Source of the DNA: Neisseriaceae bacterium JH1-16 | GTDB taxonomy: Bacteria; Pseudomonadota; Gammaproteobacteria; Burkholderiales; Chromobacteriaceae | DNA length: 64,000 nucleotides | NCBI GenBank assembly: GCA_025989215.1 | Contig: JAPDNP010000008.1 | Coordinates: 1 to 64,000, forward strand | Direction: 5' to 3' | Part shown: positions 4,484 to 36,215 of the stretch, in pieces | How positions within the stretch are numbered: the first letter of the stretch is position 1 | Layout: every line of letters begins with the position of its first letter | The notes under the pieces: model-generated | Databases searched by the model: none | What the model saw: only the letters and a program-made list of their open reading frames with translations | Told to the model about the DNA's origin: nothing | Program-made: the position numbers and the translations under genes

Positions 4484-4996
4484 TTAGTTGTTCGCGTCAA
4501 GGCAAGGCTGCAACACCTCGCGCAGCGTGGCGTTGTTGGCCGGCAGATCGAGCCACAGCCGGTAGCGGTTGCCGCTGCCCTTGGCCGGACGCACCGAGAA
4601 GCCCAGCGCGCGCGTCTTGATCGCCGCGTCCAACAGCTCCTGCGGCAGCGTCAGCGACCAGTGGAAGCGATCCTTGTCGATATGCCAGCCGCTGACGTTC
4701 AACGCGGTGAACTTGCCGTCGAGGCCGATCGCCGCGAGCTTGACCTTTTCGCCCGCCGCGCCCGGCCCTTCGAACGGCCCAAAATCGAAACTGCCGCCGG
4801 CCGGCACTTCCAGCGACAACACCGGCTGGCCGGCATCGGCGCGGCACGACCACAGCACGTCGGTGCTGCCCGACTTGACCCAGGCGGTCTTCAAAGGGTT
4901 GTCGGCATAGGGGCTGCTCACCTGCCAATCGCCAGCCTGGGCGGCACCGGCCAACAGCGCGGCCAGCGCCCAGGCGGCGCGATGCATTTTCTTCAT
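4484..4996 (-). CDS. Secreted protein of unknown function
   Basis: About 170 residues starting MKKMHRAAWALAALLAGAAQA, a signal peptide with a plausible cleavage after AQA near residue 21. The mature part is beta-rich, with only two cysteines (in LWSCRAD and near the C-terminal QPCLDANN) that could pair in the periplasm. I do not recognise the family. The start was chosen because AAGGATGAG precedes it at a suitable distance; ATGs further upstream are less well placed. It is divergent from the MidA-like gene (57 bp apart) and probably co-transcribed with the SDR gene downstream. Confidence 0.7.
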   Translation of the reverse strand: MKKMHRAAWALAALLAGAAQAGDWQVSSPYADNPLKTAWVKSGSTDVLWSCRADAGQPVLSLEVPAGGSFDFGPFEGPGAAGEKVKLAAIGLDGKFTALNVSGWHIDKDRFHWSLTLPQELLDAAIKTRALGFSVRPAKGSGNRYRLWLDLPANNATLREVLQPCLDANN

Positions 4997-5052
4997 TCTT
5001 CTCATCCTTGACGAATTCACCGACAATCGCGGCAGAGTATAACGGTTTACCC

Positions 5053-6207
5053 ATGATGAGCACCCTCCCTACCCCATCCGCCGATGCGCTGGCCGCCAGC
5101 CGCACCCTGTCCGAACTGATCGCCGCCGAGATCGCCGCCGCCGATGGCTGGCTGCCGTTCTCGCGCTATATGGAACTGGCGCTGTATGCGCCGGGCCTCG
5201 GTTACTACGCCGGCGGCAGCCGCAAGTTCGGCGGCGCCGGCGACTTCATCACCGCGCCGGAAATGACCCCGCTGTTCGCGCGCACCGTCGCCCGCCAGTT
5301 GGCCGAACTGCTGCCGCACACCGCCGGCACCGTCTATGAATTCGGCGCTGGCACCGGCGTGCTGGCCGCCGACCTGTTGACCGCGCTCGACGCGCTCGGC
5401 GTGCCGCCGGCCCGCTACTGCATCGTCGACCTGTCGGCCGAGCTGATCGAGCGCCAGCGCCAGACCTTGGCCGAACGGGTGCCGCACTGGCTCGACCGGG
5501 TCGAGTGGCTGACCGAGCTGCCGGCCGAACTGGACGGCGTGGTGATTGGCAACGAGGTGCTCGACGCGATGCCGTGCGAGCTCTTGCACTGGAACGACAG
5601 CCCGCTGCAGCGCGGCGTCACCGTGCGCGACGGCGCCTTCGCCTGGGAGGACCGGCCGATTAGCGATGCCCCGCTCGCCGAGCTGGCCGACACGCTGCTG
5701 CCACCGCTGCCCGGCTATACCACCGAAATCAGCCTGGCCAACCGCGGCTTCATCGCGCTGTTGGCCGAACGCCTCACTCGCGGCGCCATCCTGCTGTTCG
5801 ACTACGGCTTCCCGCGCGCCGAGTACTATCACCCGCAGCGCCACATGGGCACGCTGATCGGCCACTACCGCCATCACACCGTCGACGACCCGTTCTACCT
5901 GCCCGGCCTGATGGATCTGACCTGCCACGTCGACTTCACCCTGGTCGCCGAAGCCGGCATCGACGCCGGCCTCGACCTGATCGGCTACACCACCCAGGCG
6001 CAGTTCCTGATCAACGCCGGTCTTACCGACGAACTGGCCACGCTCGACATCAACGACCACGCCAGCTACCTGCCCACCGCCAGCGCGGTACAGAAGCTGA
6101 CCAACCCGGCCGAGATGGGCGAACTATTCAAGGCCATCGGCTTCGGGCGCAATGTGCCGATCGACTGGATCGGCTTTACCCACGGCGACCGCTGGCACAC
6201 CCTGTAG
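5053..6207 (+). CDS. MidA/NDUFAF7-type SAM-dependent methyltransferase (COG1565)
   Basis: A 384-residue protein of the DUF185/MidA family. The start region (ISFSRYMELALYAPGLGYYAGG-like, about residues 36-57) and SRKFGGAGDFITAPEM are the family signature. The SAM-binding glycine motif is VYEFGAGTGVLAADLL, and IVDLSAEL and VIGNEVLDAMPCELL follow. The mitochondrial homologue methylates an arginine of complex I subunit NDUFS2; the bacterial substrate is not settled. Two adjacent ATGs (5053, 5056) are possible starts. Three TTGGCCGAA words lie inside the gene (5299, 5467, 5761). Confidence 0.88.
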   Translation: MMSTLPTPSADALAASRTLSELIAAEIAAADGWLPFSRYMELALYAPGLGYYAGGSRKFGGAGDFITAPEMTPLFARTVARQLAELLPHTAGTVYEFGAGTGVLAADLLTALDALGVPPARYCIVDLSAELIERQRQTLAERVPHWLDRVEWLTELPAELDGVVIGNEVLDAMPCELLHWNDSPLQRGVTVRDGAFAWEDRPISDAPLAELADTLLPPLPGYTTEISLANRGFIALLAERLTRGAILLFDYGFPRAEYYHPQRHMGTLIGHYRHHTVDDPFYLPGLMDLTCHVDFTLVAEAGIDAGLDLIGYTTQAQFLINAGLTDELATLDINDHASYLPTASAVQKLTNPAEMGELFKAIGFGRNVPIDWIGFTHGDRWHTL

Positions 6208-6315
6208 CGCCATGACATTTAGCTGAAATGAAATATTTTCGGCACAGGGTGTTGACAGTAAAAAACCCACCACGTATAGTTCGCTCCACTTCGCGGCGCC
6301 AAGCGCAGCAAGTTC

Positions 6316-6393
<78 letters not shown>

Positions 6394-7369: not shown

Positions 7370-7558
7370 ATGAAATCAGTCCGAACAACCGTTTCCCTCT
7401 CGCCAGAGCAACTCAAACAGCTTCAAGCGTTAGCCGATGAACATGGCTTGTCCCTAGCCTGGGTTATCCGCCAGGCTGTCAGTGAGTTTCTTGAGCGGGT
7501 GGATAAGCTTGCTGCTTTCGATCCACTCCAAAGTTCCTCCGCGAGGAGAGAAAGTTGA
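7370..7558 (+). CDS. Ribbon-helix-helix DNA-binding protein, likely cassette regulator
   Basis: A 62-residue protein, MKSVRTTVSLSPEQLKQLQA onward, with the pattern of CopG/Arc repressors: a short beta strand (RTTVSLS) followed by two helices (QLKQLQALADEHGLS and AWVIRQAVSEFLERV). It begins after AAGGAAGAGAG and its stop overlaps the start of the SNF2 gene by one base (TGATG). That places it as first gene of the defence-like operon, where it may repress its own promoter. No toxin partner is visible, so an antitoxin role is less likely. Confidence 0.75.
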   Translation: MKSVRTTVSLSPEQLKQLQALADEHGLSLAWVIRQAVSEFLERVDKLAAFDPLQSSSARRES

Positions 7559-10386
7559 TGTACACCCCCTATCAGCGTGGTTACTTGGCGCATTGGCTGT
7601 CGCTTGATGGCGCAATTGAGGATGGTTTGACACAGACCATCGCCAGCGCCAAGGTGGACATGAACCCCCATCAAGTCGAAGCGGCGCTGTTTGCCTTGCG
7701 CTCGCCCCTTTCCAATGGGGTCATCCTGGCAGATGAGGTAGGGTTGGGGAAAACCATCGAAGCCAGTTTGGTGCTCGCCCAGAAGTGGGCGGAGGGCAAA
7801 CGCAAGTTGCTGCTTATCGTGCCCGCCACCCTGCGTAAGCAGTGGAGCCAAGAACTGGAAGAGAAGTTTTCGCTTGGTTCAAGAATCATCGAGGCTAAAA
7901 GCTTCAATGAGGCAAAAAAGGCGGGGGCGGACAACCCTTTTGATGTCGAACTCACCTTTGGCAAACCGGCTGTCGCAATTTGCTCTTATGAATTTGCCGC
8001 CCGCAAGGAACTCGATCTGGCCCGCGTACCATGGGATATGGTGGTGCTGGATGAAGCCCATAAACTGCGGAACATCTATAAGAACAACGGAGCCAAGACC
8101 GCCAAAAAACTCGATAGCGCCTTGCTGGGCCGTCCCAAGGTCATGCTTTCCGCAACGCCGTTGCAAAACAATCTTCAAGAGTTATACGGCCTAGTTTCCA
8201 TCATAGACCCGTACTTTTTCGGCGATCTTGACTCGTTCAAGGCACGATATTGCCGCCCGAAACTGGAACCGGCCGAGTTTGCGCTGCTGCGCGACCGGTT
8301 GGGGAAAATATGCACCCGCACCCTGCGCCGGCAAGTGCAGGAAGAAGGGGGAATCAAATTCACACGTCGCTACTCGATGACCGAGGATTACCGGCCAACC
8401 AGTGAAGAATTGGCGCTGTATAGCAACGTGTCGGCTTATCTGCAGAAGGACGACTTGCTGGCAATCAAGAGTGGTGCACGTCATCTGGTGACCTTGGTCA
8501 TCCGCAAGATTCTGGCATCCTCATCCTATGCGATTCAGGGCACCTTGCAGACCATGATCGAGCGTCTGGAAAAGAAGATGCCACTGGCCGATGCCTTGCG
8601 GGATTACGACGCGCTCGACGATCTGACCGACGCTAATGATGTCGAAGACGAAGATTTGATCGACCCGGAAGCCTTACAAGCGGAAATCAACCAACTCAAA
8701 GACTTTCGCACTCTGGCCGCCAGCATTAGCGAGAATGCCAAGGCGGATGCCTTATTGCGGGTGCTGGGAAAAGCGTTTGAGTTCACTGAGAGGTTGGGTG
8801 GCACACGCAAGGCCGTGATTTTTACCGAGTCGGTGCGCACCCAAGCCTGGCTATTCGATTTGCTGACTGAAAATGGATATCAGGACCAGATTGTCCTGCT
8901 GAACGGCAGCAATAGCGACACAGCATCCCAACAAACCTACCGGGCCTGGCTGCAAAAGCACCAAGGGTCTTCGAGGGTTTCCGGTTCAAAAACGGCGGAC
9001 ATGAAGGCCGCTTTGGTTGAGAGGTTCCGGGACGATGCCAGCATCATCATCTGCACCGAAGCAGGGGCCGAGGGTATCAACCTGCAATTCTGCTCTCTGC
9101 TTATTAACTACGATCTACCGTGGAACCCCCAGCGGGTTGAACAGCGTATTGGTCGTGTTCACCGCTATGGTCAAAAACACGATGTAGTCGTGGTGAATTT
9201 CATCAATAAAGGCAATCGCGCCGATGAACGAGTTTTTGAGCTGCTGAGCGAAAAATTCCAGTTGTTTGAAGGAGTGTTCGGCGCATCGGACGACATCCTA
9301 GGCTCAATCGAATCTGGAGTGGATATCGAGCGCCGTATTCATGACATCTATCAGAGGTGCAAAAGCGATGTGCAAATCGAGGCTGAATTCAATCAGTTGC
9401 AGGAAGAGCTAAAAAGCCAACTCGATGCTCGTGCGCAGGACACCCGTCGCTCCTTGCTGGATAATTTCGACGTGGATGTGGTGAAACGGCTCAATCTGCG
9501 CCGTGAAACAACCCTGAGAAGCCTTAGTGACTATCAAGAACGTCTGCTGAAACTGGCCAAGATGTGCCTGCCAAATGCAACGTTTAACGAAGATCGTTTT
9601 TACCACGATGGTCACTGGCACGATGTGGACTGGCAAAGAGCGAACGAGACCGACGCCCAGTTTTTTCAGCCAGGTGATGGGCAAGGGTTGGCGCTCATCA
9701 AACAGGCCAAGGCGGCACTAGGGGCATTGGATGATGCCGAGCTGGAGTTTGACTACAGCCAGCAGGGCGACGGCCATTATTCCGACCTTCGCTCTTTGAT
9801 CGGGCAGTCTGGCGAGCTGATTCTCGAAAAGGTCACCTTGACGACTGCCAAGCAAACCAGGGAGCGCTTGCTGCTAAGTGCCAGAACCGATGGCGGGCAA
9901 GAGTTGGATGAGAGAACCAGCGAGCGCCTGCTTTTCCTACCGGCTGAGGTAATGTCCCCCCTGCCCGCGTTCCAGCACGAAGCGGTCCTTCATGAGCAAC
10001 TGTCTACGCAGCGGTCAGCTTATTTGCAGGCAGCAGAGCGGGATAACGAGCGTTATTTCGAAGAAGAAACCGAAAAGCTGGACCGCTGGGCAGAAGACCG
10101 CCGCATTGCCTTGGATATCCGCATCAAGCAATTGGATCAGGAAATCAAGGAGGCGCGCAAGGCCGCCCGCCAGCTCGACTCCTTGCAAGAAAAGATGGAT
10201 GCAAAAAGAGTTCTCAAACAGTTGGAACGGGAACGGGACCGCGTGATGCTCGATTATCACGAGGAGAAGAAAAAGATTGAAGTCGAAGAAGACCGCCTGC
10301 TGGCCGAAATCGAAGAAGCGCTGCGCATGACGCCGCATTTCCAACGGCTGTTCGCCATCCGCTGGCATCTGAAGGGGCAAGCATGA
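7558..10386 (+). CDS. SNF2-family helicase (RapA/DrmD-like) of the defence cassette
   Basis: A 942-residue superfamily 2 translocase. Motif I is DEVGLGKT (about residues 59-66), motif II DEAH (about 165-168), motif III LSATPLQNN. The C-terminal helicase half has AGAEGINLQFC, NYDLPWNPQRVEQRIGR and VHRYGQ. After the motor comes about 350 residues without recognisable domain, ending in a charged coiled coil (about 830-930). It resembles the SNF2 proteins of phage-defence loci and should move on double-stranded DNA. ATG at 7558 is preceded by GCGAGGAGAG. The stop overlaps the next start (ATGA), so translation is coupled. Confidence 0.88.
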   Translation: MYTPYQRGYLAHWLSLDGAIEDGLTQTIASAKVDMNPHQVEAALFALRSPLSNGVILADEVGLGKTIEASLVLAQKWAEGKRKLLLIVPATLRKQWSQELEEKFSLGSRIIEAKSFNEAKKAGADNPFDVELTFGKPAVAICSYEFAARKELDLARVPWDMVVLDEAHKLRNIYKNNGAKTAKKLDSALLGRPKVMLSATPLQNNLQELYGLVSIIDPYFFGDLDSFKARYCRPKLEPAEFALLRDRLGKICTRTLRRQVQEEGGIKFTRRYSMTEDYRPTSEELALYSNVSAYLQKDDLLAIKSGARHLVTLVIRKILASSSYAIQGTLQTMIERLEKKMPLADALRDYDALDDLTDANDVEDEDLIDPEALQAEINQLKDFRTLAASISENAKADALLRVLGKAFEFTERLGGTRKAVIFTESVRTQAWLFDLLTENGYQDQIVLLNGSNSDTASQQTYRAWLQKHQGSSRVSGSKTADMKAALVERFRDDASIIICTEAGAEGINLQFCSLLINYDLPWNPQRVEQRIGRVHRYGQKHDVVVVNFINKGNRADERVFELLSEKFQLFEGVFGASDDILGSIESGVDIERRIHDIYQRCKSDVQIEAEFNQLQEELKSQLDARAQDTRRSLLDNFDVDVVKRLNLRRETTLRSLSDYQERLLKLAKMCLPNATFNEDRFYHDGHWHDVDWQRANETDAQFFQPGDGQGLALIKQAKAALGALDDAELEFDYSQQGDGHYSDLRSLIGQSGELILEKVTLTTAKQTRERLLLSARTDGGQELDERTSERLLFLPAEVMSPLPAFQHEAVLHEQLSTQRSAYLQAAERDNERYFEEETEKLDRWAEDRRIALDIRIKQLDQEIKEARKAARQLDSLQEKMDAKRVLKQLERERDRVMLDYHEEKKKIEVEEDRLLAEIEEALRMTPHFQRLFAIRWHLKGQA

Positions 10387-11657
10387 TCAATACCACCGAA
10401 CTGGTGCGTGAACTGATCTATCAGATTCGCTTGGGCGAAGATTCTGCCTATGAATTCAAAAGCATCACCATCAAAGGCAACAAGGTCGAGCAACCGCACC
10501 GAGACAGCGTGGCCGACGAACTGGCCGCTTTTGCCAACGGTAATGGCGGCATGCTGGTGCTGGGCGTCAATGACAAGACCCGCGAGGTGGAAGGCATTGC
10601 GCAGCAAGATCTAGGCACGGTCGAACTTTGGCTTACCAATATGGCCAACGACGCCATCAGCCCACCGCTGGCTATTGAAACCCGGCTGGTGGAAATTCCC
10701 GATCACCAAGGTAATGCGAAACCACTGGTGTGGGTGCGGGTAACCAAGAGCCTGTTCGTTCACCGTAGCCCACATGGCTATTACCTTCGGGTTGGCTCCA
10801 GCAAGCGAGAAATGTCGCCGGAATTACTGGCGCGACTGTTCCAGCAACGCAGCATGGCACGGCTGATCCGTTTCGACGAACAACTGGTGCCGCACGCCGG
10901 ATTGGACGCTATCGATCCCGAGCTAAAAGCCCGCTTCCTGCGCGGTGATTTGCCGGAGGCCATGCAACTCAAAAAGCTCTACCTGGCGATGGAGGACGAA
11001 AATCGGGAAGTTCACCTGACCGTTACCGGTGTATTGCTGCTGACTCCGCGCCCGGCAGATTTTCTATCTTCGGCCTATGTACAATGCGTGGCGTATTCCG
11101 GCACAGAACGCAACGCCGAATACCAGGTAGATGCTCAGGATTGCGACGGCCCGGTGGACCTGCAAATCCAGCAGGCCTTCAACTTCGTCAAACGCAATAT
11201 GCGGGTGGAAGCAGTCAAGCGCCCCGGCCGCATCGACATTCCGCAGTTCGATTTAGGCGCAGTGTACGAAGCATTGGTTAATGCTGTCGCCCACCGCGAC
11301 TACGGCATGCATGGCGCACGGGTGCGGGTGCATCTGTTTGCCGACCGGTTGGAAATCGCCACGCCTGGCGGCTTACCCAACAGCCTGACCGTGGATAGCA
11401 TGGACTCCAACAGCATCACCCGCAACGAAACCTTGGTGAACCTGTTGAGCCGCTACTACCCGGCCGACCCGGCCAGCCAGCGGCAGAACATGATCGAACG
11501 CCGGGGCGAAGGCGTCCCTACCATCATCGCCGCCAGCGAGCGGCTATCTACCCGCCGCCCGCTGTACGAGCAAATCGACCATACCGAATTGAAACTCACC
11601 ATCTATGCCGCCAGCCGCGAACAGAACGGCCTGCTGGCACAGTTTGGCGACGAATAA
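10383..11657 (+). CDS. ATP-binding protein with AlbA_2 (Schlafen-like) and HATPase_c_4 domains
   Basis: A 424-residue protein. The N-terminal third carries the AlbA_2 signature (EFKSITIKGN, then DELAAFANGNGGMLVLGVND near residues 38-57). The C-terminal third has the GHKL-like ATPase motif EALVNAVAHRDYGM and IATPGGLP near 295-340. Such proteins are often annotated RecG-like or transcriptional regulators but contain no helicase. It overlaps the SNF2 gene by 4 bp and sits 18 bp before the methyltransferase, the arrangement of a single complex. It probably supplies ATP-dependent sensing or regulation; the exact role is unknown. Confidence 0.85.
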   Translation: MINTTELVRELIYQIRLGEDSAYEFKSITIKGNKVEQPHRDSVADELAAFANGNGGMLVLGVNDKTREVEGIAQQDLGTVELWLTNMANDAISPPLAIETRLVEIPDHQGNAKPLVWVRVTKSLFVHRSPHGYYLRVGSSKREMSPELLARLFQQRSMARLIRFDEQLVPHAGLDAIDPELKARFLRGDLPEAMQLKKLYLAMEDENREVHLTVTGVLLLTPRPADFLSSAYVQCVAYSGTERNAEYQVDAQDCDGPVDLQIQQAFNFVKRNMRVEAVKRPGRIDIPQFDLGAVYEALVNAVAHRDYGMHGARVRVHLFADRLEIATPGGLPNSLTVDSMDSNSITRNETLVNLLSRYYPADPASQRQNMIERRGEGVPTIIAASERLSTRRPLYEQIDHTELKLTIYAASREQNGLLAQFGDE

Positions 11658-11675
11658 AGCAAAGTAAAACATCGA

Positions 11676-13325
11676 ATGAGCAATAAACAGAAACTGGAAC
11701 TGAACTGGATCGGCAAAGACAAGCGCCCACGCTTGGAGCCGCGCATTTTGATTGAAGACAAGGCACTGTCTTACCGCGCCGTATCCGCCGTTCAGCCAGA
11801 GCTGCTGGAAGGTCGCGACGCGACTGCGCCTCACCCGTTCAATGACAATCTGCTGATCCAAGGCGACAACTTGCTGGCGCTTAAGGCGCTGGAAGCCCAG
11901 TACGCCGGTCGCGTGAAGTGCATATTTATCGACCCACCGTACAACACCGGCAGCGCCTTCACCCACTACGACGATGGCGTTGAGCATTCGATGTGGCTGA
12001 CGCTGATGCGTGATCGGCTGGAGTTGATCCGCAGCTTACTAGCGGAGGATGGGTCGTTGTGGATCACTATTGACGACAACGAAGCGCACTATCTGAAGGT
12101 CCTTTGTGACGAGATATTTGGCCGACAGAACTTCATCGCCTCAAATGTTTGGCAAAAGAGATATTCACGTGAGAACCGAGAAGCCATCGGTGATGCGCAT
12201 GACTATGTTCTCGTGTTTGCTAAGAATGCCGATCGCTTTAAGGCGATTCGCAATCGTATACCGATGAACGAAGAGCAAGCGAAGGTCTACAAAAACCCGA
12301 ACAACCATCCGCGTGGTCGTTGGCGTCCGATTCCGATGACTGCTCAAGGATATCGACCAAACCAAATGTATGAGATTGTTGCTCCCGGGGGCGCAGTGCA
12401 TCGGCCACCTGAAGGACGTTGTTGGTCCACAATCGAAAGTGAGTTTCTGAAGTTGCGGGAGGCTGGCCGAATTTATTTCGGCAAGGATGGCAATAGCCAG
12501 CCAAACATCATTCGCTTCTTGGATGAGGTCGAAGGTATGGTGCCTTGGACATGGTGGCCTCACGATGAAGTTGGTCACACCGATGAAGCAAAAAAAGAGG
12601 TGCATGCCTTGTTTGGTAAAGCGGATGCTTTTCTCACGCCGAAGCCGGAACGACTAATTCATCGCATACTCCATATCTCAACCAATCCAGGCGACCTCGT
12701 CCTCGATTCCTTCGCCGGCTCCGGCACCACCGGCGCAGTCGCCCACAAAATGGGCCGACGCTGGATCATGGTCGAGCTGGGCGAACACTGCCACACCCAT
12801 ATCGTGCCCCGCCTGAAAAAAGTCATCGACGGCGAAGATCAAGGTGGTATTTCCAAAATAGTCAACTGGCAGGGCGGCGGCGGGTTTCGCTATTTCCGCC
12901 TCGCGCCGTCGTTGTTGAAAAAAGACCAATGGGACAACTGGATCATCAACCCGGAGTACAACGCCGAGATGCTGGCGGAAGCCATGTGCAAGCATATGGG
13001 CTTCACCTACGCGCCCAGCCAAGCGCATTTCTGGATGCACGGCCACAGCACCGAAACCGACTTCATCTATGTCACCACCGGCAGCCTGAGCCATGACCAG
13101 CTGCGGGTGATCAGCGACGAAGTGGGCACGGGGCGTACGTTGCTGATTTGTTGCAAGGCCTTCATGGCCGATGCCGACGCCTTCCCCAACCTCACCCTGA
13201 AGAAAATTCCTCGTGCCATTCTGGGCAAGTGCGAATGGGACCATGACGACTACAGCTTCAGCGTGAATGTGTTGCCGGATGAAGAGGACAATGATGAAGC
13301 GCCCCTTCTTGATGACGAAGAATAA
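11676..13325 (+). CDS. Site-specific DNA methyltransferase (type III Mod-like, beta class)
   Basis: A 549-residue amino-methyltransferase. The catalytic motif IV DPPYNTG lies near residue 86, before the SAM-binding motif I LDSFAGSGTTG near 345, the beta-class order of type III Mod subunits and adenine N6 methylases. The region between them (about 170-320) should hold target recognition; its base composition is lower in GC than the flanking domains, as expected of a recently exchanged specificity segment. It likely marks host DNA so that the neighbouring Res-like protein spares it. The target sequence cannot be read from the gene. Confidence 0.9.
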   Translation: MSNKQKLELNWIGKDKRPRLEPRILIEDKALSYRAVSAVQPELLEGRDATAPHPFNDNLLIQGDNLLALKALEAQYAGRVKCIFIDPPYNTGSAFTHYDDGVEHSMWLTLMRDRLELIRSLLAEDGSLWITIDDNEAHYLKVLCDEIFGRQNFIASNVWQKRYSRENREAIGDAHDYVLVFAKNADRFKAIRNRIPMNEEQAKVYKNPNNHPRGRWRPIPMTAQGYRPNQMYEIVAPGGAVHRPPEGRCWSTIESEFLKLREAGRIYFGKDGNSQPNIIRFLDEVEGMVPWTWWPHDEVGHTDEAKKEVHALFGKADAFLTPKPERLIHRILHISTNPGDLVLDSFAGSGTTGAVAHKMGRRWIMVELGEHCHTHIVPRLKKVIDGEDQGGISKIVNWQGGGGFRYFRLAPSLLKKDQWDNWIINPEYNAEMLAEAMCKHMGFTYAPSQAHFWMHGHSTETDFIYVTTGSLSHDQLRVISDEVGTGRTLLICCKAFMADADAFPNLTLKKIPRAILGKCEWDHDDYSFSVNVLPDEEDNDEAPLLDDEE

Positions 13326-13342
13326 GTAGGAAGTCCAGCACG

Positions 13343-16120
13343 ATGGCTGAGCAAATCAACGGCACAAAAGCCGCCAACCAATTGACGGCGCGGCTTTCGT
13401 TGCGCACCCCGCAGCATGAATCGCTGCAGATTCTGGCAGACCTGCTGGAGCAGTTACAGCTAAGCAAAGACCCGGATTTGCAGCATTGGCGGACGGTGAT
13501 CCAGCAGCAACACCCGACCATGCAGGCGTTCGAACGGGCCTTCCCTTCGCTGTGTTTTGCGCTGGCCACTGGGGTGGGCAAGACCCGTTTGATGGGGGCG
13601 ATGATCGCCTGGCTGTATATCACCGGGCGCAGTCGCCATTTCTTTGTGCTGGCCCCCAACCTGACCATTTACGAGAAGCTGAAGCAGGATTTCACGCTCG
13701 GCCACCCCAAATACGTGTTTGCCGGCATCCCCGAAATGGCGCAAACCCCGCCGGTGATTGTGACCGGCGAGGATTACGATGACGGACGTGGCGTGCGGCT
13801 CGATTTCGCGGTGCCGGAAAGCCTAACCGGCGACTTGTTCGGCTCGGACAACGCCCCGCATATCAACATCTTCAATATCGCCAAGATCAATGCCCGCGAC
13901 AACAAGCAGGGCGCGGCCAAGTCCGCTACTGCCAAGGTGCGGCGATTGCAGGAATACATAGGCGAATCCTATTTTGCCTATCTGGCGGAGTTACCCGATC
14001 TAGTGGTGTTGATGGACGAGGCGCACCGCTACTACGCCAGTGCTGGGGCCAAGGCGATTAACGACTTGAAGCCGGTGCTGGGTATCGAGCTGACCGCCAC
14101 GCCCAAGACCACCGGAGCCAACCCGCGCGCCTTCAGCAACATCGTCTACCACTACCCGTTGGCCAGCGCGCTGAACGATGGCTTTGTGAAGATACCGGCG
14201 GTCGCTACACGCAAGGATTTTCGCGCCGACCAGTACAGCTCCGAAAAACTGGAGGAGATCAAACTGGAAGACGGCATCCATCATCACGAATATGTAAAGG
14301 TGGAGCTGGAAACCTACGCCCGTACTCATGGCGTAAAGCCGGTTAAACCGTTCATGCTGGTGGTGGCGCAGGACACCGCCCACGCTAGCGCCATCAAGAC
14401 GCATCTCGAATCCGAGCAATTTTTTGACGGGCGTTATCAAGGCCGCGTTATTGAGGTGCACTCCAATCAGTCTGGCGAAGAGTCGGACGCTTCGATGCAG
14501 CGTCTGTTGGAGGTGGAGCACGACGAGTTGACCGAGGTGGTGATTCACGTCAACAAGCTTAAAGAGGGCTGGGATGTGACCAACCTCTACACCATCGTGC
14601 CCTTGCGCGCTTCGGCCTCGGAAATTCTTACGGAGCAAACCATCGGCAGGGGCTTGCGTCTGCCGTATGGCAAGCGCACTGGGGTGGAGGCGGTAGACCG
14701 TTTGTGCATCATCGCGCACGACCGATTTCAGGAAATCATCGACCGCGCCAACGAGGAAGAGTCGATCATCCGCAAGACGGTGTATATCGGCGCTGGCAAC
14801 GATGCAGAAATTCCGGACAGAAAGCCACAGATCATCACCGCGCCTTCTTACGCGGAGATGTTGGCGACGGGCAAGCCAGCGATACAGGACGGAAGGGCCG
14901 TGCAGGGAACGGTCGCCCACTATCAGGTTGACCGGTTCTCTGAGCAGCAAACCCGGATTGCTGAAATCGCCCTGCAAGCCATCCACGATGGGGCTGAAGG
15001 GTTGAATTCCAGCAAGGATCTAGACAGGACTGAGATCCAACAGCAGTTGGTCACGCGAGTTGAGCAAGTGCTGCGCGATAGCCAGCCGGCCCAGCCGCAA
15101 CTGGAAGGGCTGGAGCCCGCCGCTTCCTCAGAGGAGGTCGCAGGCATCGTGCTCAAAGTAGTTGCCAAGTTGATCGAGCTGACCATTGATGTGCCGCAGA
15201 TCGTGGTGCTGCCCACCCGGGAGGTCAACTATGGCTTTGACAACTTTGACTTGCTGCAACTGGAGAAAATCAACTACCAGCCGGTGAGCCAGGAAATTCT
15301 GTTGCAGCATTTGGAGAACAATCAGCGGGCCAGTATTCAGTGGGGCCGCCAGGGGGCGCGCGAATCGAAGCTTGAGAACTACGTTGTTCGCCATCTGCTG
15401 GACCAGGATGCCATCGATTACGATGAGCACGCCGGTTTGCTCTACAAGTTGGCGTCACAGGTCGTGGAGCGCTTGCGTGCTTACCTGGCGGATGAGGGGC
15501 AAGTAGAGAATGTCCTAATCTATTGGCAGAAACAACTTAGCGATTTTGTTTGGGCACAGATGAAGGAACACCGCTGGACGACGCCTACCGATTACGTTGG
15601 CAAAGTCACGCAGGGGTTTGACATCTTGAAACCCGCCACGTTTACCTTGGCCGCCGGAGAGCAGCCCCGCGATTTTCGGATACCCATTGCCGATAAGCGC
15701 GCTGTTCGGCAGATGGTGTTTACCGGTTTCCGGCGCTGTTGCTACCCGTATCAGAAGTTCGACTCGGTAGATGGAGAGTGGCGTCTGGCGCAGGTTCTGG
15801 AAGACGATGAAGACGTGCTCAAGTGGATGAAGCCTGCACCTGGGCAGTTCCGCATTGAATATAAGAATGGCCAGAACTATGAGCCCGACTTCGTGGTGGA
15901 AACCAAATCGTGCTGCTTGATTATTGAACCGAAGCGCGCCGATCAGGTGGCTGCTGAAGATGTGCAAGCCAAGATGCGAGCCGCAGTGCGCTGGTGCAGT
16001 TATGCCAATCAGCATGCGGAAAGCACCGGTACCAAACCATGGTCTTACTTGCTGGTGCCTGACGATAGGATTGTTCTGGGCCTAAGCGTTGCAAGGCTCA
16101 AAGCAGAGTATGAACAATAG
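13343..16120 (+). CDS. DEAD/DEAH helicase with C-terminal nuclease, type III Res-like
   Basis: A 925-residue superfamily 2 protein. Motif I is ATGVGKT (about residues 75-81), motif II DEAH (LMDEAHRYYA, about 224), motif III LTATPK, and motif VI IGRGLRLPYGKR. Near residues 848-866 the pattern PDFVVETKSCCLIIEPK matches a PD-(D/E)xK nuclease active site, as in Res subunits. It lies 17 bp after the Mod-like gene on the same strand. With Mod it would form a restriction pair, but the two extra proteins upstream set the locus apart from an ordinary type III system. Confidence 0.88.
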   Translation: MAEQINGTKAANQLTARLSLRTPQHESLQILADLLEQLQLSKDPDLQHWRTVIQQQHPTMQAFERAFPSLCFALATGVGKTRLMGAMIAWLYITGRSRHFFVLAPNLTIYEKLKQDFTLGHPKYVFAGIPEMAQTPPVIVTGEDYDDGRGVRLDFAVPESLTGDLFGSDNAPHINIFNIAKINARDNKQGAAKSATAKVRRLQEYIGESYFAYLAELPDLVVLMDEAHRYYASAGAKAINDLKPVLGIELTATPKTTGANPRAFSNIVYHYPLASALNDGFVKIPAVATRKDFRADQYSSEKLEEIKLEDGIHHHEYVKVELETYARTHGVKPVKPFMLVVAQDTAHASAIKTHLESEQFFDGRYQGRVIEVHSNQSGEESDASMQRLLEVEHDELTEVVIHVNKLKEGWDVTNLYTIVPLRASASEILTEQTIGRGLRLPYGKRTGVEAVDRLCIIAHDRFQEIIDRANEEESIIRKTVYIGAGNDAEIPDRKPQIITAPSYAEMLATGKPAIQDGRAVQGTVAHYQVDRFSEQQTRIAEIALQAIHDGAEGLNSSKDLDRTEIQQQLVTRVEQVLRDSQPAQPQLEGLEPAASSEEVAGIVLKVVAKLIELTIDVPQIVVLPTREVNYGFDNFDLLQLEKINYQPVSQEILLQHLENNQRASIQWGRQGARESKLENYVVRHLLDQDAIDYDEHAGLLYKLASQVVERLRAYLADEGQVENVLIYWQKQLSDFVWAQMKEHRWTTPTDYVGKVTQGFDILKPATFTLAAGEQPRDFRIPIADKRAVRQMVFTGFRRCCYPYQKFDSVDGEWRLAQVLEDDEDVLKWMKPAPGQFRIEYKNGQNYEPDFVVETKSCCLIIEPKRADQVAAEDVQAKMRAAVRWCSYANQHAESTGTKPWSYLLVPDDRIVLGLSVARLKAEYEQ

Positions 16121-17029: not shown

Positions 17030-17049
17030 AGCCCGGCTCTTGCCGGGCT
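17030..17049 (+). other. Intergenic hairpin before the DUF932 gene
   Basis: AGCCCGGC (17030-17037) pairs with GCCGGGCT (17042-17049) around TCTT. No T-run follows, so a leader or processing element is as likely as a terminator. Similar GC-rich hairpins precede the genes at 18112 and 21082. Confidence 0.5.
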
Positions 17050-17081
17050 ATATGCACTCGTCTTTCCAAAGGAGCAATCAC

Positions 17082-18035
17082 ATGGCCCACCTCGTCGAAA
17101 CCATGGCCTACGTCGGCGACACCCCGTGGCACGGCCTGGGTAATCAGTTGACCGCCCATCAGCCTTTTACAACCTGGCTCACCGAAGCCGGCATGGACTG
17201 GACCATCGAGCAGAGCGACGTACTGTTCAACGTCCCCTCGGATGGCCTGCATATCCGCTCGCACGCCGATGCCAAGGTACTGTATCGCTCGGATACTTTG
17301 GCACCTCTGTCGATCGTATCGAACCGCTACAAGGTGGTTCAGCCTTCCGAGGTCCTGCACTTTTACCAGGACCTGGTGCATGCCGGCGGCTTCGAACTGG
17401 AAACCGCCGGGGTGCTCAAAGGCGGGCGCAAACTGTGGGCCCTCGCACGCACGGGCCAGGAAACGCTACTGCGTGCCGGCGATAACGTGAAGGCATATTT
17501 GTTACTTGCCACAAGTTGCGACGGCACACTTGCCACCACAGCCCAGTTCACTTCGGTGCGCGTGGTGTGCAACAACACCCTGCAGATGGCGGTCGGCGAC
17601 AAGACTGGTGCGGTCAAGGTGCCGCACTCGACCGTGTTCGATCCGCAAGCGGTCAAGGAAGCGTTGGGGCTCGGGTTGTCGTCCTGGGATCGGTTCATCG
17701 GCAATCTGCGCCAGTTGACCCGCCGCCCTGTCTCACCGCAGGAGGCCAAGCAGTACTTCGCCGATGTGCTCGATGAAGCCATGCTGGTTGGAGACGACAG
17801 CGTGGCTTCAAAGGCGATGCAGCAGCTTACTGCTTTATATAGTGGCGCCGGCATGGGCTCGATGCTGACCGGCACACGCGGGACGGCCTGGGGGCTGCTC
17901 AATGCGATGACCGAGTTCGTCGATCATCGTCGCCGGGCACGCAGTCAGGACTACCGGCTCGATTCAGCCTGGTTTGGCGCAGGTGCCACGCTCAAGCAGA
18001 AAGCGTTCGATGAAGCGCTCAAGCTGGTCGTGTAA
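17082..18035 (+). CDS. DUF932 domain protein (plasmid/phage type)
   Basis: A 317-residue member of the DUF932 family, common on plasmids, ICEs and phages. Characteristic features are the start with AYVGDTPWHGLG (about residues 9-20), VSNRYKVVQPSE near 83, and a second half with VRVVCNNTLQMAV. Biochemical role is not established; the gene commonly sits beside recombination genes, as here. Start chosen because AAAGGAGCAATCAC precedes the ATG at 17082. The next gene is the YqaJ exonuclease, 76 bp on. Confidence 0.85.
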   Translation: MAHLVETMAYVGDTPWHGLGNQLTAHQPFTTWLTEAGMDWTIEQSDVLFNVPSDGLHIRSHADAKVLYRSDTLAPLSIVSNRYKVVQPSEVLHFYQDLVHAGGFELETAGVLKGGRKLWALARTGQETLLRAGDNVKAYLLLATSCDGTLATTAQFTSVRVVCNNTLQMAVGDKTGAVKVPHSTVFDPQAVKEALGLGLSSWDRFIGNLRQLTRRPVSPQEAKQYFADVLDEAMLVGDDSVASKAMQQLTALYSGAGMGSMLTGTRGTAWGLLNAMTEFVDHRRRARSQDYRLDSAWFGAGATLKQKAFDEALKLVV

Positions 18036-19127: not shown

Positions 19128-20042
19128 ATGCTCAAAGGACTCGCCATTACCCCGCCCGTCATCGGGCGCATTTCCATTGGTCGCGTGGTCGAGAAGAACG
19201 GCAAGCGGCTGCCGGAGAAGGACGACCAGTTCACGCTGACGACGCAGGTGCAGAACCGCGACGGCTGGATACTGCACCCGCTCAACGAATCACTGCGCAA
19301 GGCCACGCTGGGCAAGCTGCGATCGATCCCGGTCCGGATGCTGTTCAACGAACCTGATCTGAATCTGCGCGCGGAATATTGCCTATTCGATCGCAATACC
19401 GGTCGTCCCGTCTGCGTCGGTAATGGCGAGCGGTGCAAGCGCGTGGGTCGCGATGGCATAGCGATCCTGCCCTGCCCGTCGCCGGACGGCTGCCAGTTCG
19501 GCGGTCACGGCGGCTGCAAGCCGTATGGTCGACTCAACGTCATTGTGGGTGACGAAGATGAGATGGGATCGTTCATCTTCAGGACCACGTCTTTCAATTC
19601 GATCCGAACACTCGCTGCGCGGCTGCATTACTTCAGTGGGGTATCGGGCAACCTGCTGGCCTGCCTGGCGTTGGAACTGAGGCTGCGTGGCAAGTCCACG
19701 GCGCAGAGCTACCGGTCTGCGATCTACTACGTCGACCTGGGGATTCGGACTGGCAGTACGCTGGAAGCCACCCTCACCGAAGCGCGCGAGCTGGACGCAC
19801 GGCGCAAAACGGCCGGGTTCAACCAGGTGGGGCTGGACGCGGCGGCCAAGCTGGGCTTCAGCAACGGCGCGTTCGAGGACAGTCCGGAGGAAGCTGCGGC
19901 GGTGGTCGAGGAATTCTTCCCCGAGGGCACGGACGACCGTTCGGACTCTGGTGACGCAGAGAAGTCCGGTGAGGGCAAGCCCCCTACCTTGCGAGACAAG
20001 TTGGACCGCAAGGCAGCGTTGCTGGGCGGGGCGACTGCATGA
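19128..20042 (+). CDS. Putative metal-binding recombination partner of YqaJ
   Basis: A 304-residue protein commonly annotated as hydrolase or metal-binding protein on ICEs. A cluster of cysteines and a histidine (CVGNGERCKRV, LPCPSPDGCQFGGHGGCKPYG, about residues 88-130) looks like a metal site, and may be an iron-sulfur or zinc site. It follows the YqaJ gene by 17 bp with a strong GAGGAG ribosome binding site. By position it may be the single-strand annealing or DNA-binding partner, but I see no RecT/Beta signature. The C-terminus is acidic. Confidence 0.6.
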   Translation: MLKGLAITPPVIGRISIGRVVEKNGKRLPEKDDQFTLTTQVQNRDGWILHPLNESLRKATLGKLRSIPVRMLFNEPDLNLRAEYCLFDRNTGRPVCVGNGERCKRVGRDGIAILPCPSPDGCQFGGHGGCKPYGRLNVIVGDEDEMGSFIFRTTSFNSIRTLAARLHYFSGVSGNLLACLALELRLRGKSTAQSYRSAIYYVDLGIRTGSTLEATLTEARELDARRKTAGFNQVGLDAAAKLGFSNGAFEDSPEEAAAVVEEFFPEGTDDRSDSGDAEKSGEGKPPTLRDKLDRKAALLGGATA

Positions 20043-22521: not shown

Positions 22522-23802
22522 ATGAAAAGAACCTTAATCGCAGCAGCCTGTCTCGCCTCATTTTCGGCTTATGGACAGACTTATGTCGGTCTTGAGGTTG
22601 GCAAGGCCGACCATAGCAAGTACAGCGTCAACGACATGGAGTGGGATAGCCTGTCGATCACCAAGAACGACAACCATCCGACGGGGTGGGGCCTGTATGT
22701 CGGGCACGGCATCAATGACTACCTGTCTGCCGAACTGGGCTACCTGAACTTGGGCAAGAAGAAGGTCGCGGGAACGGATAGCGGTGCGGTAGCCGATGCC
22801 TCCATCGGCATCGACGGCCTTGCCTTATCCTTCTTGGCAGGCAAAAGCCTCGGCCCCATCAAGCCTTACGTCAGGCTCGGTATGATGTACGCGCGTCGCC
22901 AGCGCGATGTCACCCCGTCCGGAAATGCGGCAGCCGTATTTGCCAACCCGAATCCTGAGCATTCTGAAACCTCTGCGGTGCGGCCACTTTACGGTGTCGG
23001 CGTGGAAGCGGAACTCAGCCGTAGCGTATCGCTCCGTGCCGACTACAGCGTGGTGAAGGATGCATACGTCGATTACATCAACAACATCGACAACGGCTAC
23101 ATCAAACGTAGTGTCACGCTAGCTTCCTTGGGGCTGCTCTATAAATTCGACAGCAGGCCAAACGGCACCGCGCTAGGGGACGGCAAATGGTCGATGGGGT
23201 TGGCCGGAGGCTGGTCGAAGACCTCAGCGCGGCTCACAGGCGGGCACTACACAGGCAATATCTGGGACCTGAGGACGAATACGGTAGATTCCCAGGTGAG
23301 CGGCAACATGTCGGATAACAAGACCGGCACCACCTACCGCCTATCGCTCTTCCGGGATGAAGGGCCATACGAGCTGGAGGTCTACCTCGCCACCCTCGGC
23401 GAATACCGGTCGAGAAGTGCCGTCAATGGCGTCACAGGCGGCGGCAATATCCTGACCGGGGCGACCACCCGCACCGCCAACGCCTTCGGTGCCGACGTGG
23501 GGTACAAATTTGAACCACGACCATCGCTGTTGATCATCCCGAAAGTCGGCTTGGCGGCAGTCAAGACACGTGACGAGATCTACAACAACCTGGATTTTGC
23601 TGGTGTGGAAGGCTCGGCACGTGGGCCGGTCGTGAATCACACCGTACTTTCTCCAACACTTGGCCTAACAGTTGGCTATCAGTTGACCAAATCGATCGAA
23701 GCCCGGTTGGGGTACGACCACTACTTCCGCTCCGGAACCGATTCAGCGCTTGGCAAGGGGAGCATCGATACACTGTCTGCCGGGGTAAAGATCGGGCTCT
23801 AG
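22522..23802 (+). CDS. Outer membrane protein with two tandem beta-barrel domains
   Basis: A 426-residue protein with signal peptide (MKRTLIAAACLASFSAYG, cleavage near 18). Residues 20-210 form an OmpA/Opa-like eight-strand barrel, recognisable from alternating amphipathic strands (YVGLEVGKADHSKY, GLYVGHGINDYLSAELGYLN) and a terminal aromatic strand (LASLGLLYKF). Residues 215-426 start again with GKWSMGLAGGWSKTS and end with a second barrel-type strand (LSAGVKIGL). Strong ribosome binding site (AGGGGGATTTC). Function in the island is unknown; a surface-exclusion or phage-receptor role is possible. Confidence 0.75.
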   Translation: MKRTLIAAACLASFSAYGQTYVGLEVGKADHSKYSVNDMEWDSLSITKNDNHPTGWGLYVGHGINDYLSAELGYLNLGKKKVAGTDSGAVADASIGIDGLALSFLAGKSLGPIKPYVRLGMMYARRQRDVTPSGNAAAVFANPNPEHSETSAVRPLYGVGVEAELSRSVSLRADYSVVKDAYVDYINNIDNGYIKRSVTLASLGLLYKFDSRPNGTALGDGKWSMGLAGGWSKTSARLTGGHYTGNIWDLRTNTVDSQVSGNMSDNKTGTTYRLSLFRDEGPYELEVYLATLGEYRSRSAVNGVTGGGNILTGATTRTANAFGADVGYKFEPRPSLLIIPKVGLAAVKTRDEIYNNLDFAGVEGSARGPVVNHTVLSPTLGLTVGYQLTKSIEARLGYDHYFRSGTDSALGKGSIDTLSAGVKIGL

Positions 23803-34439: not shown

Positions 34440-35783
34440 TCAAGCCGCATCGACTTGAAATTGGATTCCCGCCTGTTCCAGCATCCAAAACTCGATTTTG
34501 TCATGCCACTTCCGCAGCAAATCGAGAGGACGACGGCGATAATGCTTCTCGGCGATAGCTGACGGCTTGTGCCCCTGGATTTGCGCGACCACCCCGACCG
34601 GTACCTCGACCCATTCCGACAAAGTGCCGAACGAGCGGCGAAGGCCATGCAACGTAACATGGGGAAGCTCCGCCTCGGCAAGAGCCTTGTTGTGTGCGAT
34701 GCGGGGTTCAGCGATCTTGCCGTCCTCCGAAGTCTTGCTGGAGAACACCCATTCAGACGGCGCCCACTTCTCTCCTCGCTCGTTGAGGCGTGCGAGTTGC
34801 CGGCGATCCGGCGGCGTATCGTTCAGCCGCTTCAAATTCATCAACAACGTCGCGAGATACGGAGTAAGGGGAATCGTCCGGCCACCGGTCCCCTCGACCT
34901 TGTCGTCTAGAACGAGGCTTCGCCAACGAAAATCGACGTCCTCCCAACGCAAACCCGCCCATTCTTCGCGGCGAGCGCCTGTGATCAACAATCCTTGCAG
35001 GTACGCGCTGATGATTGGGTTGGTGGTATTGCGTACGGCGCGAAACCATGCCACCAACTGTTCTCGCTGCAAACAATCAGCTTTCGTTGCGGGCTTGGGC
35101 AAATGCTCTCGAATCCGCTTATTTGTGCATACCTCGGATGAAGCAAGGCCCGCGTAATCAGGTTGCTCTTGACACCAAGCGATAAATGCCCGAAGAAGCG
35201 AGAAAGCCAGTCGCGCTCTTGCCGGGCGCGCCTTCACCTCTTCCGCCAGCCACGAACCAACGGTATCGCGGGTTAACTCGGACAAGCGGAGTTCCATCAA
35301 CGGAGCTAGCGGACCTGCAACAATTTGACGTCCACCCTTCTTGGCTTGCCGCCCGCCCGCCTCCGACAACCGCTGATGGTCCAGGTAATGCCGCTCCGAC
35401 CACTTGTCCTTGCGAACCTCCAAATATTGCTGCCAAGCCTCCAAGACGAGCAAATCATGCCGCCGGGCCTCAGCACGACGCACTTCGTGGGCCACTTGCT
35501 GCTCTGCCCGTACTTCGCGGGGGTCTTTGCCGTCGTCAATCAATGTTCTGAGCCTTGCCGCCTCGGTACGTGCGCGACCCAGATCCCACGCCCGGGCATC
35601 CCCAATGGTCACCCTGATCGTCTTGCCGAACAAGCGAGATTCGAAAATGTAGGCTCGTGCACCAGCTGCCGTGATACGCAATCCGAAGCCGGCCGTCTTC
35701 GCATCCCAGTAGATGGTCTGCTGCTTACCCGGCTCGCATTGGAAGCTCTCGACCCGAGCCGCGGTGAAGTTCTGCTTGCTCAT
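34440..35783 (-). CDS. Tyrosine integrase of the island
   Basis: A 447-residue tyrosine recombinase with an N-terminal DUF4102-type arm-binding part (FGLRITAAGARAYIFE), a SAM-like core-binding domain (about 110-230) and the catalytic domain. The catalytic residues are visible: R in TGARREEWAGL (about 271), HGLRRSF with H-x-x-R (about 379-382), H in IQGHKPSA (about 405) and Y in KHYRRRP (about 415). It should catalyse integration at the tRNA site. ATG at 35783 is preceded by GAGGGG; the one codon earlier is less well spaced. The gene faces attR, 157 bp away, and paired repeats sit at its 5' end. Confidence 0.93.
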   Translation of the reverse strand: MSKQNFTAARVESFQCEPGKQQTIYWDAKTAGFGLRITAAGARAYIFESRLFGKTIRVTIGDARAWDLGRARTEAARLRTLIDDGKDPREVRAEQQVAHEVRRAEARRHDLLVLEAWQQYLEVRKDKWSERHYLDHQRLSEAGGRQAKKGGRQIVAGPLAPLMELRLSELTRDTVGSWLAEEVKARPARARLAFSLLRAFIAWCQEQPDYAGLASSEVCTNKRIREHLPKPATKADCLQREQLVAWFRAVRNTTNPIISAYLQGLLITGARREEWAGLRWEDVDFRWRSLVLDDKVEGTGGRTIPLTPYLATLLMNLKRLNDTPPDRRQLARLNERGEKWAPSEWVFSSKTSEDGKIAEPRIAHNKALAEAELPHVTLHGLRRSFGTLSEWVEVPVGVVAQIQGHKPSAIAEKHYRRRPLDLLRKWHDKIEFWMLEQAGIQFQVDAA

Positions 35784-35793
35784 CATCCCCTCG

Positions 35794-35812
35794 TGTAGGC
35801 ACCATGTAGGCA
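35794..35812. repeat. Paired TGTAGGCA repeats at the integrase start (arm sites or operator)
   Basis: TGTAGGCAC-CA-TGTAGGCA lies directly upstream of the ribosome binding site of the integrase and matches 6451-6469 in sequence and spacing. A partial inverted copy, GCCTACA, lies at 35897-35903. Position suggests both arm binding for recombination and autoregulation of the integrase gene. Confidence 0.6.
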
Positions 35813-35939
35813 AATCCTAGGGGAATCGATCCATCTCGGTCAATGAAAGAATCCGCAGAACATGGCAAAAACCCTTTATTTATAAGGCGACACGGAGCCT
35901 ACATGGATGTCCATCCACATGGATGAATGTTGAGTTCCT

Positions 35940-35989
<50 letters not shown>

Positions 35990-35996
35990 GGATTAC

Positions 35997-36026
35997 AAGG
36001 GGTTAGCTTCGGCTAACCCCTTTTCC
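35997..36026 (+). terminator. Original tRNA terminator, displaced by the island
   Basis: AAGGGGTTAGC (35997-36007) pairs with GCTAACCCCTT (36012-36022) around a TTCG tetraloop, with T's following. It lies right of attR, so before integration it was directly behind the tRNA gene. Confidence 0.85.
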
Positions 36027-36215
36027 GTTTTCGGCGCTGCCAACGTCGCAGGCCGTGCCATCCGCTGGCCATCAGGTTCGTCAACGGCTTCGGCAACCAT
36101 GCCCCGAGCAAGCGATCCGCCACCGGGAGCGTGTACCTCGTGGTCATCGTTTAGGCCACGCCGACCGAGCACACGCCGCGGCACCAGAATGCTCCCGCCA
36201 TTCATCATGAAATGC

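Follow-up and report, generated by a model that had tools for sequence, protein, structure and literature searches.

A SNF2-Mod-Res operon with an embedded Schlafen-type gene

We analysed a 64,000-nt stretch of the Neisseriaceae bacterium JH1-16 genome (contig JAPDNP010000008.1, positions 1 to 64,000; hereafter the window) and focused on a five-gene operon at 7370–16120. We give about an even chance to the explanation that this operon is a SNF2-assisted, type III-like restriction-modification (R-M) system that carries a built-in backup effector, which would probably be an RNase. Gene order, motifs, co-divergence of SNF2 and Res, exchange of the Mod target-recognition region, variable cargo at the same positions and mobility by integration are read from the sequences, and from them we infer restriction activity, a role for the SNF2 protein, RNase activity and a trigger. 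The five open reading frames (ORFs) all lie on the + strand and encode an RHH protein, a DrmD-like SNF2 ATPase, a Schlafen/AlbA_2 protein with a GHKL ATPase domain (AlbA-HATPase), a type III-like Mod and a type III-like Res. In the ORF listing their junctions are, in order, a TGATG overlap, a 4-base overlap, an 18-base gap and a 17-base gap. ORFs and domain matches thus bear out the original prediction of five tightly packed genes on one strand, and the domain matches support its view of a defence-type operon that exceeds a simple type III pair by having two helicases, a methylase and an ATPase. The space between SNF2 and Mod is called slot A, and that between Mod and Res slot B.

7370–7558, + strand: RHH (CopG-type) regulator, operon gene 1; Pfam RHH_1, 4.4e-10
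7555 (TTG) or 7558 (ATG)–10386, + strand: DrmD-like SNF2 ATPase (core); PADLOC PDLC02619, 4.5e-205
10383–11657, + strand: Schlafen/AlbA_2 plus GHKL protein, 424 aa, slot A cargo; Pfam SLFN_AlbA_2, 1.8e-17, and HATPase_c_4, 1.4e-18
11676–13325, + strand: Mod, beta-class type III-like DNA adenine methyltransferase (core); Pfam N6_N4_Mtase, 9.8e-48; PADLOC PDLC03636 (MTase_III), 1.2e-226
13343–16120, + strand: Res, type III-like restriction subunit, SF2 helicase (core); Pfam ResIII, 2.7e-18; PADLOC PDLC03648 (REase_III), 1209 bits

The core order is conserved across genomes and plasmids

Relatives of the SNF2 gene were found in 22 of 369 class genomes (E ≤ 1e-100), and in 19 of 398 phylum and 29 of 399 order genomes (E ≤ 1e-150); the three samples overlap and each contains the window's genome. 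The AlbA query against genome contigs gave 20 loci (L006–L025), which are hence biased to AlbA. On plasmids, tblastn found SNF2 matches in 985 records; in 45 of these, one place spans at least 80% of the query. Sixteen annotated plasmid loci around SNF2 matches were collected; six enter the locus counts and ten later ones are described apart. Together with the genome stretches, L006–L025 and the window, the six made 90 loci once two duplicates, both complete and both with AlbA, had been dropped (L119 = L014 and L138 = L009), and 89 after removal of L025, which has no SNF2.

SNF2, Mod and Res lie in this order on one strand in 57 of the 89 loci. The original prediction had proposed a comparison of gene order across genomes, with loss of genes in most relatives speaking against a functional link; among loci whose sequence continues for at least 10 kb downstream, 42 of 49 keep the core, and the seven exceptions are L018, L024, L124, L139, L140, L152 and L159. 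Five of the ten later plasmid loci (Planctomycetes K2D, Sphingopyxis, Rhizobium, Paracoccus and Blastomonas) are annotated with SNF2, methyltransferase and Res-type genes in order. The Salmonella plasmid locus has a large hypothetical gene at the Res position, the Hymenobacter stretch stops after the methyltransferase, the gene table of E. coli pSTEC639 is incomplete, and the Thioclava locus shows no Mod or Res within the stretch. Since other Pseudomonadota, as well as plasmids from Deinococcota and Planctomycetota, show the core genes in the same order, the arrangement in the window is not due to chance. A permuted order, Mod-Res-SNF2, occurs in the last of the ten, from Conchiformibius steedae (L190, NZ_CP059562.1, 2499–11847). 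A second branch of the chassis has a larger Mod (1028–1189 aa) and Res (1066–1137 aa) and comprises L030, L109, L110, L111, L128, L136, L154, L155, L157 and L158; in its member from an E. coli plasmid, the pair matches N6_N4_Mtase and ResIII, and typed cargo between Mod and Res in this branch includes RhuM, YhcG and GmrSD_N proteins.

Around the core, the first gene may start at an upstream GTG (7349) or at ATG 7370, the latter preceded by GGAAGAGAGC. An RHH relative lies upstream of SNF2 in 13 of the 20 loci L006–L025, some of the remaining loci being cut upstream. Megablast detected no near-identical copy of the locus, returning five plasmid records with coverage of at most 3% and no E. coli genome, and promoter and terminator scans gave nothing clearly exceeding shuffled sequence.

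Core genes co-diverge and Mod exchanges its recognition region

In an alignment of 33 loci, those that are complete and whose proteins are full-length and of the window's type, SNF2, Mod and Res all have their catalytic motifs, mostly invariant. The SNF2 protein matches Pfam SNF2-rel_dom (1.6e-35) and Helicase_C (2.1e-18). Mod carries DPPY at aa 86 (D, P and P in 33/33 loci, Y in 31/33) and FAGSG at 346 (F, G, S and G in 33/33), and among PDB sequences it matches the Mod of 6k0w (2.3e-42) and EcoP15I Mod (2.8e-30). The GVGKTR, DE-H and P-D ... E-x-K residues of Res are kept in all 33 loci; Res had no PDB sequence match, and its putative C-terminal PD-(D/E)xK-like nuclease is assigned by motif. 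Pairwise distances correlated at r = 0.86 for SNF2-Res and at 0.53 for both SNF2-Mod and Mod-Res, and for each pair 0 of 2000 permutations reached as high a value.

Mod distances depart from those of SNF2 and Res because Mod residues 186–312 are exchanged. This hypervariable target-recognition region (TRD; ~aa 186–312, window 12231–12611) was the least similar of five Mod segments in every one of the 25 closest pairs. In L118 and L014, whose SNF2 proteins are 90% identical, the TRDs share 10% identity and the other four segments 58, 78, 81 and 93%. As judged from these alignments, the exchange fits an R-M system switching its target.

These features resemble type III R-M systems such as EcoP1I and EcoP15I, in which a beta-class Mod (DPPY before FAGSG) likewise directly precedes Res on one strand, as mod and res do here (same strand, adjacent, 17-base gap), with an SF2 helicase and a C-terminal PD-(D/E)xK-like motif in Res and an exchangeable TRD in Mod. 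Classical type III R-M systems consist of two genes, whereas here a co-diverging DrmD-like SNF2 gene precedes Mod-Res and cargo slots separate the three genes.

Two slots hold exchangeable defence genes

Counting operon-strand ORFs of at least 90 aa, slot A was filled in 39 and slot B in 22 of the 57 complete loci; both were filled in 15 and neither in 11, a crude count that wrongly includes L029 among the last, since its record annotates AIPR, VapC and others in slot A. The ORF caller also took a Mod piece of L132 for a slot protein. In the genome survey plus the window alone, slot A was filled in 30 and slot B in 22 of 44 complete loci and AlbA was present in 6, or in 8 of 46 when the two duplicate loci are counted.

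A Pfam family was assigned to 35 of 40 slot representatives; for some of these the stretch ends before Mod or Mod was unseen (e.g. L159), so that "slot" there means directly after SNF2. The families were AIPR, YhcG/DUF1016, RhuM, OLD AAA-TOPRIM, AAA, DUF4276, AAA and subtilase, GmrSD, Fic, SIR2, AAA_13, TIR/SEFIR, PLD, HipA, HepT with nucleotidyltransferase, zeta toxin, AbiEi, HTH-M78, KilA-N, BRO and others. Seven of eight further non-core proteins had a Pfam family, among them an AAA_13 protein of L139 that sits after a Mod remnant, outside an intact slot. Ten slot proteins, chosen rather than drawn at random, all matched PADLOC models, nine at E < 1e-20, including IetA (1.6e-98), IetS (4e-257), Dsr2 (1.4e-143), Old (5.5e-96), bSEFIR (9.8e-96) and Orf5/HEC-06. 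Across the survey, slot proteins match IetAS, Dsr2, OLD, bSEFIR, GmrSD, AIPR/AbiU, YhcG, RhuM, Fic, HipA and Schlafen families. Defence families thus recur in the slots, a statement about recurrence and not a measured enrichment over the flanks. PMC2292703 calls AIPR common in R-M operons. Slot proteins outside any Pfam family (e.g. in L105 and L147) are, by position, candidate unknown defence genes.

Turnover of this cargo was compared over pairs among 33 loci in which at least one member has slot A cargo. Identical slot A sets were found in 2/2 pairs at SNF2 distances below 0.15, 5/40 at 0.15–0.30, 20/32 at 0.30–0.40, 2/126 at 0.40–0.50, 1/316 at 0.50–0.60 and 0/6 beyond. Because 28 of the 30 identical pairs are AlbA-only, AlbA is stable within its own clade and the other clades swap cargo rapidly; at 0.15–0.30, four of the five identical pairs are AlbA pairs, and excluding AlbA pairs leaves 1 identical set in 32. 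Counting cargo changes by parsimony gave 30 for 30 states on 56 rows; with nearly every state unique, this figure is uninformative and was not used.

The slot A protein of the window has a Schlafen-type E-E-D triad

The window's AlbA-HATPase gene had been noted in the original prediction as having no established role, and it now has a context: in relatives, the cargo slot it occupies carries other defence modules. Replacement of AlbA by other effectors is seen across the chassis and once in the window's own clade, where an Aeromonas plasmid carries AAA and DUF4276 cargo and a WYL regulator; a second exception in that clade, L023, has a truncated SNF2/AlbA pair. AlbA reappears in the distant clades of L145 and L151. 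In L098, slot A holds two different AlbA-HATPase genes in tandem (8449–11162).

The AlbA_2-HATPase proteins of 17 relatives are 69–84% identical to that of the window. All 18 proteins share E19, E24 and D64, which form an E-x4-E ... D triad in an AlbA-like core and align with SLFN14 E206, E211 and D249, which we take to be catalytic residues. PDB entry 9uie names an E211A mutant of SLFN14. A Foldseek search with the AlbA model matched SLFN14 (2.1e-6) and the SAMD9 tRNase domain (9.9e-5), as well as SLFN5, SLFN11 and SLFN13; it also matched 3lmm (DIP2311, uncharacterised), which is similar in sequence in both halves. The PADLOC pAgo model PDLC02394 (1121 positions) spans residues 33–414 of the window protein (9.6e-21), which suggests that the same two-domain part occurs elsewhere fused to, or filed with, Argonaute.

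Among the closest published counterparts are the bacterial Schlafen backup RNases, which PMC12839542 describes as fused to a minimal histidine kinase and a wHTH and as linked to BREX/BR loci in at least 1017 taxa. The window protein shares the AlbA_2 Schlafen domain with an E-E-D triad and the C-terminal histidine-kinase-type ATPase. It differs in standing with a SNF2-type III-like core and in that Pfam found no wHTH after the ATPase in the 424-aa protein, whereas the published proteins have a wHTH and stand at BREX/BR. Effector genes inside R-M operons are also known from EcoprrI/PrrC and type I hsd loci. A relative of the AlbA-HATPase (30% identity) on pNDM-KN lies in a type I R-M operon, HsdR-TrlF-AlbA/HATPase-HsdS-AAA-HsdM (L198, NC_019153.1, 1414–12184), another pairs with TrlF on pPsv48B, and AAA_13 proteins, whose domain we take to be of the RloC type, occupy slots in the present loci. 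The chassis here is SNF2-Mod-Res and not HsdMSR, and coupling between cargo and restriction is putative here. PrrC is described in PMC12707154 and PMC3874165, and the former has PrrC coupled to its host R-M enzyme.

Possible mechanism and alternatives

In our preferred explanation, Mod would mark one target sequence, chosen by its exchangeable TRD, and Res with the SNF2 motor, a putative DNA translocase or remodeller, would attack unmarked incoming DNA. The AlbA_2-HATPase, encoded between SNF2 and Mod, would be the embedded backup effector, with its N-terminal Schlafen domain as a candidate RNase acting on tRNA or rRNA. Its GHKL ATPase may be a switch that flips once the R-M system is engaged or disabled by phage DNA or by an anti-restriction protein, in a manner much like that of PrrC with EcoprrI.

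Several observations weigh against this explanation. In the window's SNF2 clade (25 tree rows) AlbA is nearly fixed and could there be a core subunit. All 17 loci compared (picked through AlbA, with two SNF2 genes slightly cut by a contig end) show higher conservation of AlbA than of SNF2. L018, L024 and L139 keep a near-full-length SNF2 and AlbA with at least 8.9 kb of sequence past AlbA and have Mod/Res fragments or none, and L006 shows neither Mod nor Res in the 2.6 kb up to the contig end. In L139 (8726–13038), a full SNF2, AlbA and a Mod fragment are followed by a full AAA_13 protein (507 bits), presumably of the RloC type. As AlbA persists in L018, L024 and L139 although Mod and Res are lost or in fragments, these loci speak against strict caging of a toxic AlbA by Mod/Res; a trigger of phage origin, or SNF2 and AlbA acting as one unit, would suit them better. 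One plasmid homologue (H64) is annotated as a transcriptional regulator. The AlphaFold model (mean predicted local distance difference test score 58.9) is reliable at about residues 20–150 and poor beyond, and the matches of the ATPase half are therefore sequence matches.

An alternative, to which we give clearly less than an even chance, is that the slots reflect mere defence-island turnover, the core tolerating insertions and the cargo acting independently of R-M. It overlaps with our preferred explanation, and the weights given to the different readings do not sum to one. PADLOC files IetAS, Dsr2 and OLD as stand-alone defence, cargo differs between near relatives as the 0.15–0.30 distance class shows, and three loci hold AlbA without intact Mod and Res, all of which speak for it. 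Independent insertion accounts less well for cargo on the operon strand of an operon that keeps its order (such ORFs being the ones counted) and for the recurrence of families that also belong to other R-M loci (AIPR, RhuM, YhcG, AAA_13 and Schlafen). The coupling of PrrC to its R-M enzyme, as given in PMC12707154, also speaks for a functional tie.

That the AlbA-HATPase is instead a subunit integral to restriction, acting as a GHKL clamp or a DNA-looping ATPase that aids Res or SNF2 between sites, appears rather unlikely to us. A role of this kind has been suggested for the MORC and paraMORC proteins found in R-M operons, and it would accord with the near-fixation and high conservation of AlbA in the window's SNF2 clade and with its retention beside SNF2 in loci that have lost Mod/Res. 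PMC2292703 reports R-M operons that combine GHKL ATPases with SNF2 or type III-like helicases. Set against this are the 11 of 57 complete loci scored with both slots empty (L029 wrongly so) and the many others with unrelated proteins: the chassis exists without AlbA, since complete loci have empty or differently filled slots. The conserved Schlafen triad and the Pfam match to HATPase_c_4 also point away from a subunit.

Less probable still is a transcriptional or RNA-binding regulator in an otherwise ordinary type III R-M operon with an extra helicase. Beyond the single homologue named as a transcriptional regulator, many plasmid homologues are annotated "RNA-binding domain-containing protein"; gene-regulatory names are common for AlbA_2 proteins. 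The operon, however, already has an RHH regulator as gene 1, where relatives have HTH or WYL genes, and elsewhere the slot holds toxins and named defence systems.

Membership of Hma/BR or DISARM, finally, is very improbable: the SNF2 protein matches the DrmD (4.5e-205) and HmaA (5.8e-48) models, but the genome has no HmaB or MZB and the operon proteins gave no HmaC, DrmB or DrmC among the matches listed.

Relation to DISARM and Hma

The window's SNF2 protein is DrmD-like by PADLOC and NCBIfam, DrmD being the SNF2 helicase of DISARM, but it scores 676 bits with NCBIfam NF038318 (DrmD_b), under the cut-off of 950, and the accompanying methyltransferase is type III-like. Among the PADLOC matches listed, the five operon proteins gave no DrmB or DrmC, and the DrmA model matched only the SNF2 protein (9.5e-36). 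The MZB domain, expected in DrmB, had no match anywhere in the genome. We therefore rejected DISARM membership, in agreement with the original prediction that its core genes are missing.

Hma and BR share with the window operon a helicase, a methyltransferase and an ATPase together in one operon, and PMC12839542, which presents Hma as a DUF499-centred system, reports Schlafen-type backup effectors at BREX/BR loci. The differences are that the window genome lacks HmaB, that the operon has no HmaC among the matches listed and that its ATPase is a GHKL protein. HmaB (PDLC00660 and PDLC00661) had no match genome-wide, a control match being obtained in Thermotoga maritima; HmaA is a more distant SNF2 relative, well behind DrmD; and HmaC (DUF499) was absent among the matches listed for the five operon proteins, no genome-wide HmaC search having been made. 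Hma membership was rejected on these grounds. The original interpretation of a defence operon beyond type III and without core DISARM genes thus stands, and the resemblance to Hma that it had suggested does not.

Titles and abstract starts, a search that left most subscription papers and bioRxiv preprints outside its scope, gave no paper describing this operon, and the available parts of PMC7251935, PMC10853773, PMC3874165, PMC12373910 and PMC8989522 contain no description of such an operon. Backup effectors in R-M operons and backup Schlafens for BREX are known already; a two-slot SNF2-Mod-Res chassis was not found described. These loci offer a further mapped set, after type I R-M and BREX, with effectors built into a restriction operon, and their fixed core and exchangeable cargo allow a direct test of whether restriction machinery senses for its passengers. 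We tentatively advance, as possible though doubtful, the broader idea that SNF2-Mod-Res is a further restriction chassis in which whole anti-phage systems are swapped at the SNF2|Mod and Mod|Res junctions, with the state of the restriction complex controlling their activity. If so, restriction-blocking phages would set off whichever cargo is aboard; in the window that cargo would be a Schlafen tRNase with its own GHKL ATPase as the switch.

The operon is carried by an integrative element in tRNA-Met

A 29.6-kb integrative element, inserted in a tRNA-Met gene, carries the operon as cargo close to one of its ends, the operon beginning 1 kb past the tRNA.

6316–6392, + strand: tRNA-Met (CAT), integration site, its 3' part being attL (6344–6393); ARAGORN, direct repeat, empty site in congener
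34440–35813, − strand: tyrosine integrase of the element, adjoining the right att copy; Pfam Phage_integrase, 2.4e-11, and Arm-DNA-bind_3, 1.4e-12
35940–36006, + strand: attR, direct repeat of the tRNA-Met 3' end; repeat search, empty site in congener

The repeat of the tRNA 3' end, the integrase and the empty site in a congener together place the operon on this element. Fifty identical bases (6344–6393 = 35940–35989) lie inside a 67-base repeat at 88%, and the 26-base tRNA end occurs at just these two places genome-wide with 2 mismatches allowed. In the sole congener compared (G1114), window 4922–6392 aligns to 1–1473 at 88% identity and window 35940–36030 to 1425–1517 of the same stretch at 87%. 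The right-flank gene (FAD, 36379) had no adjoining tRNA in six other family genomes from three genera. The element (6344–36006) also encodes a DUF932/TIGR03299 phage/plasmid-like protein (17040–18035), a Gp3-like directionality factor (19128–20042) and an OmpA-like outer membrane protein (22522–23802).

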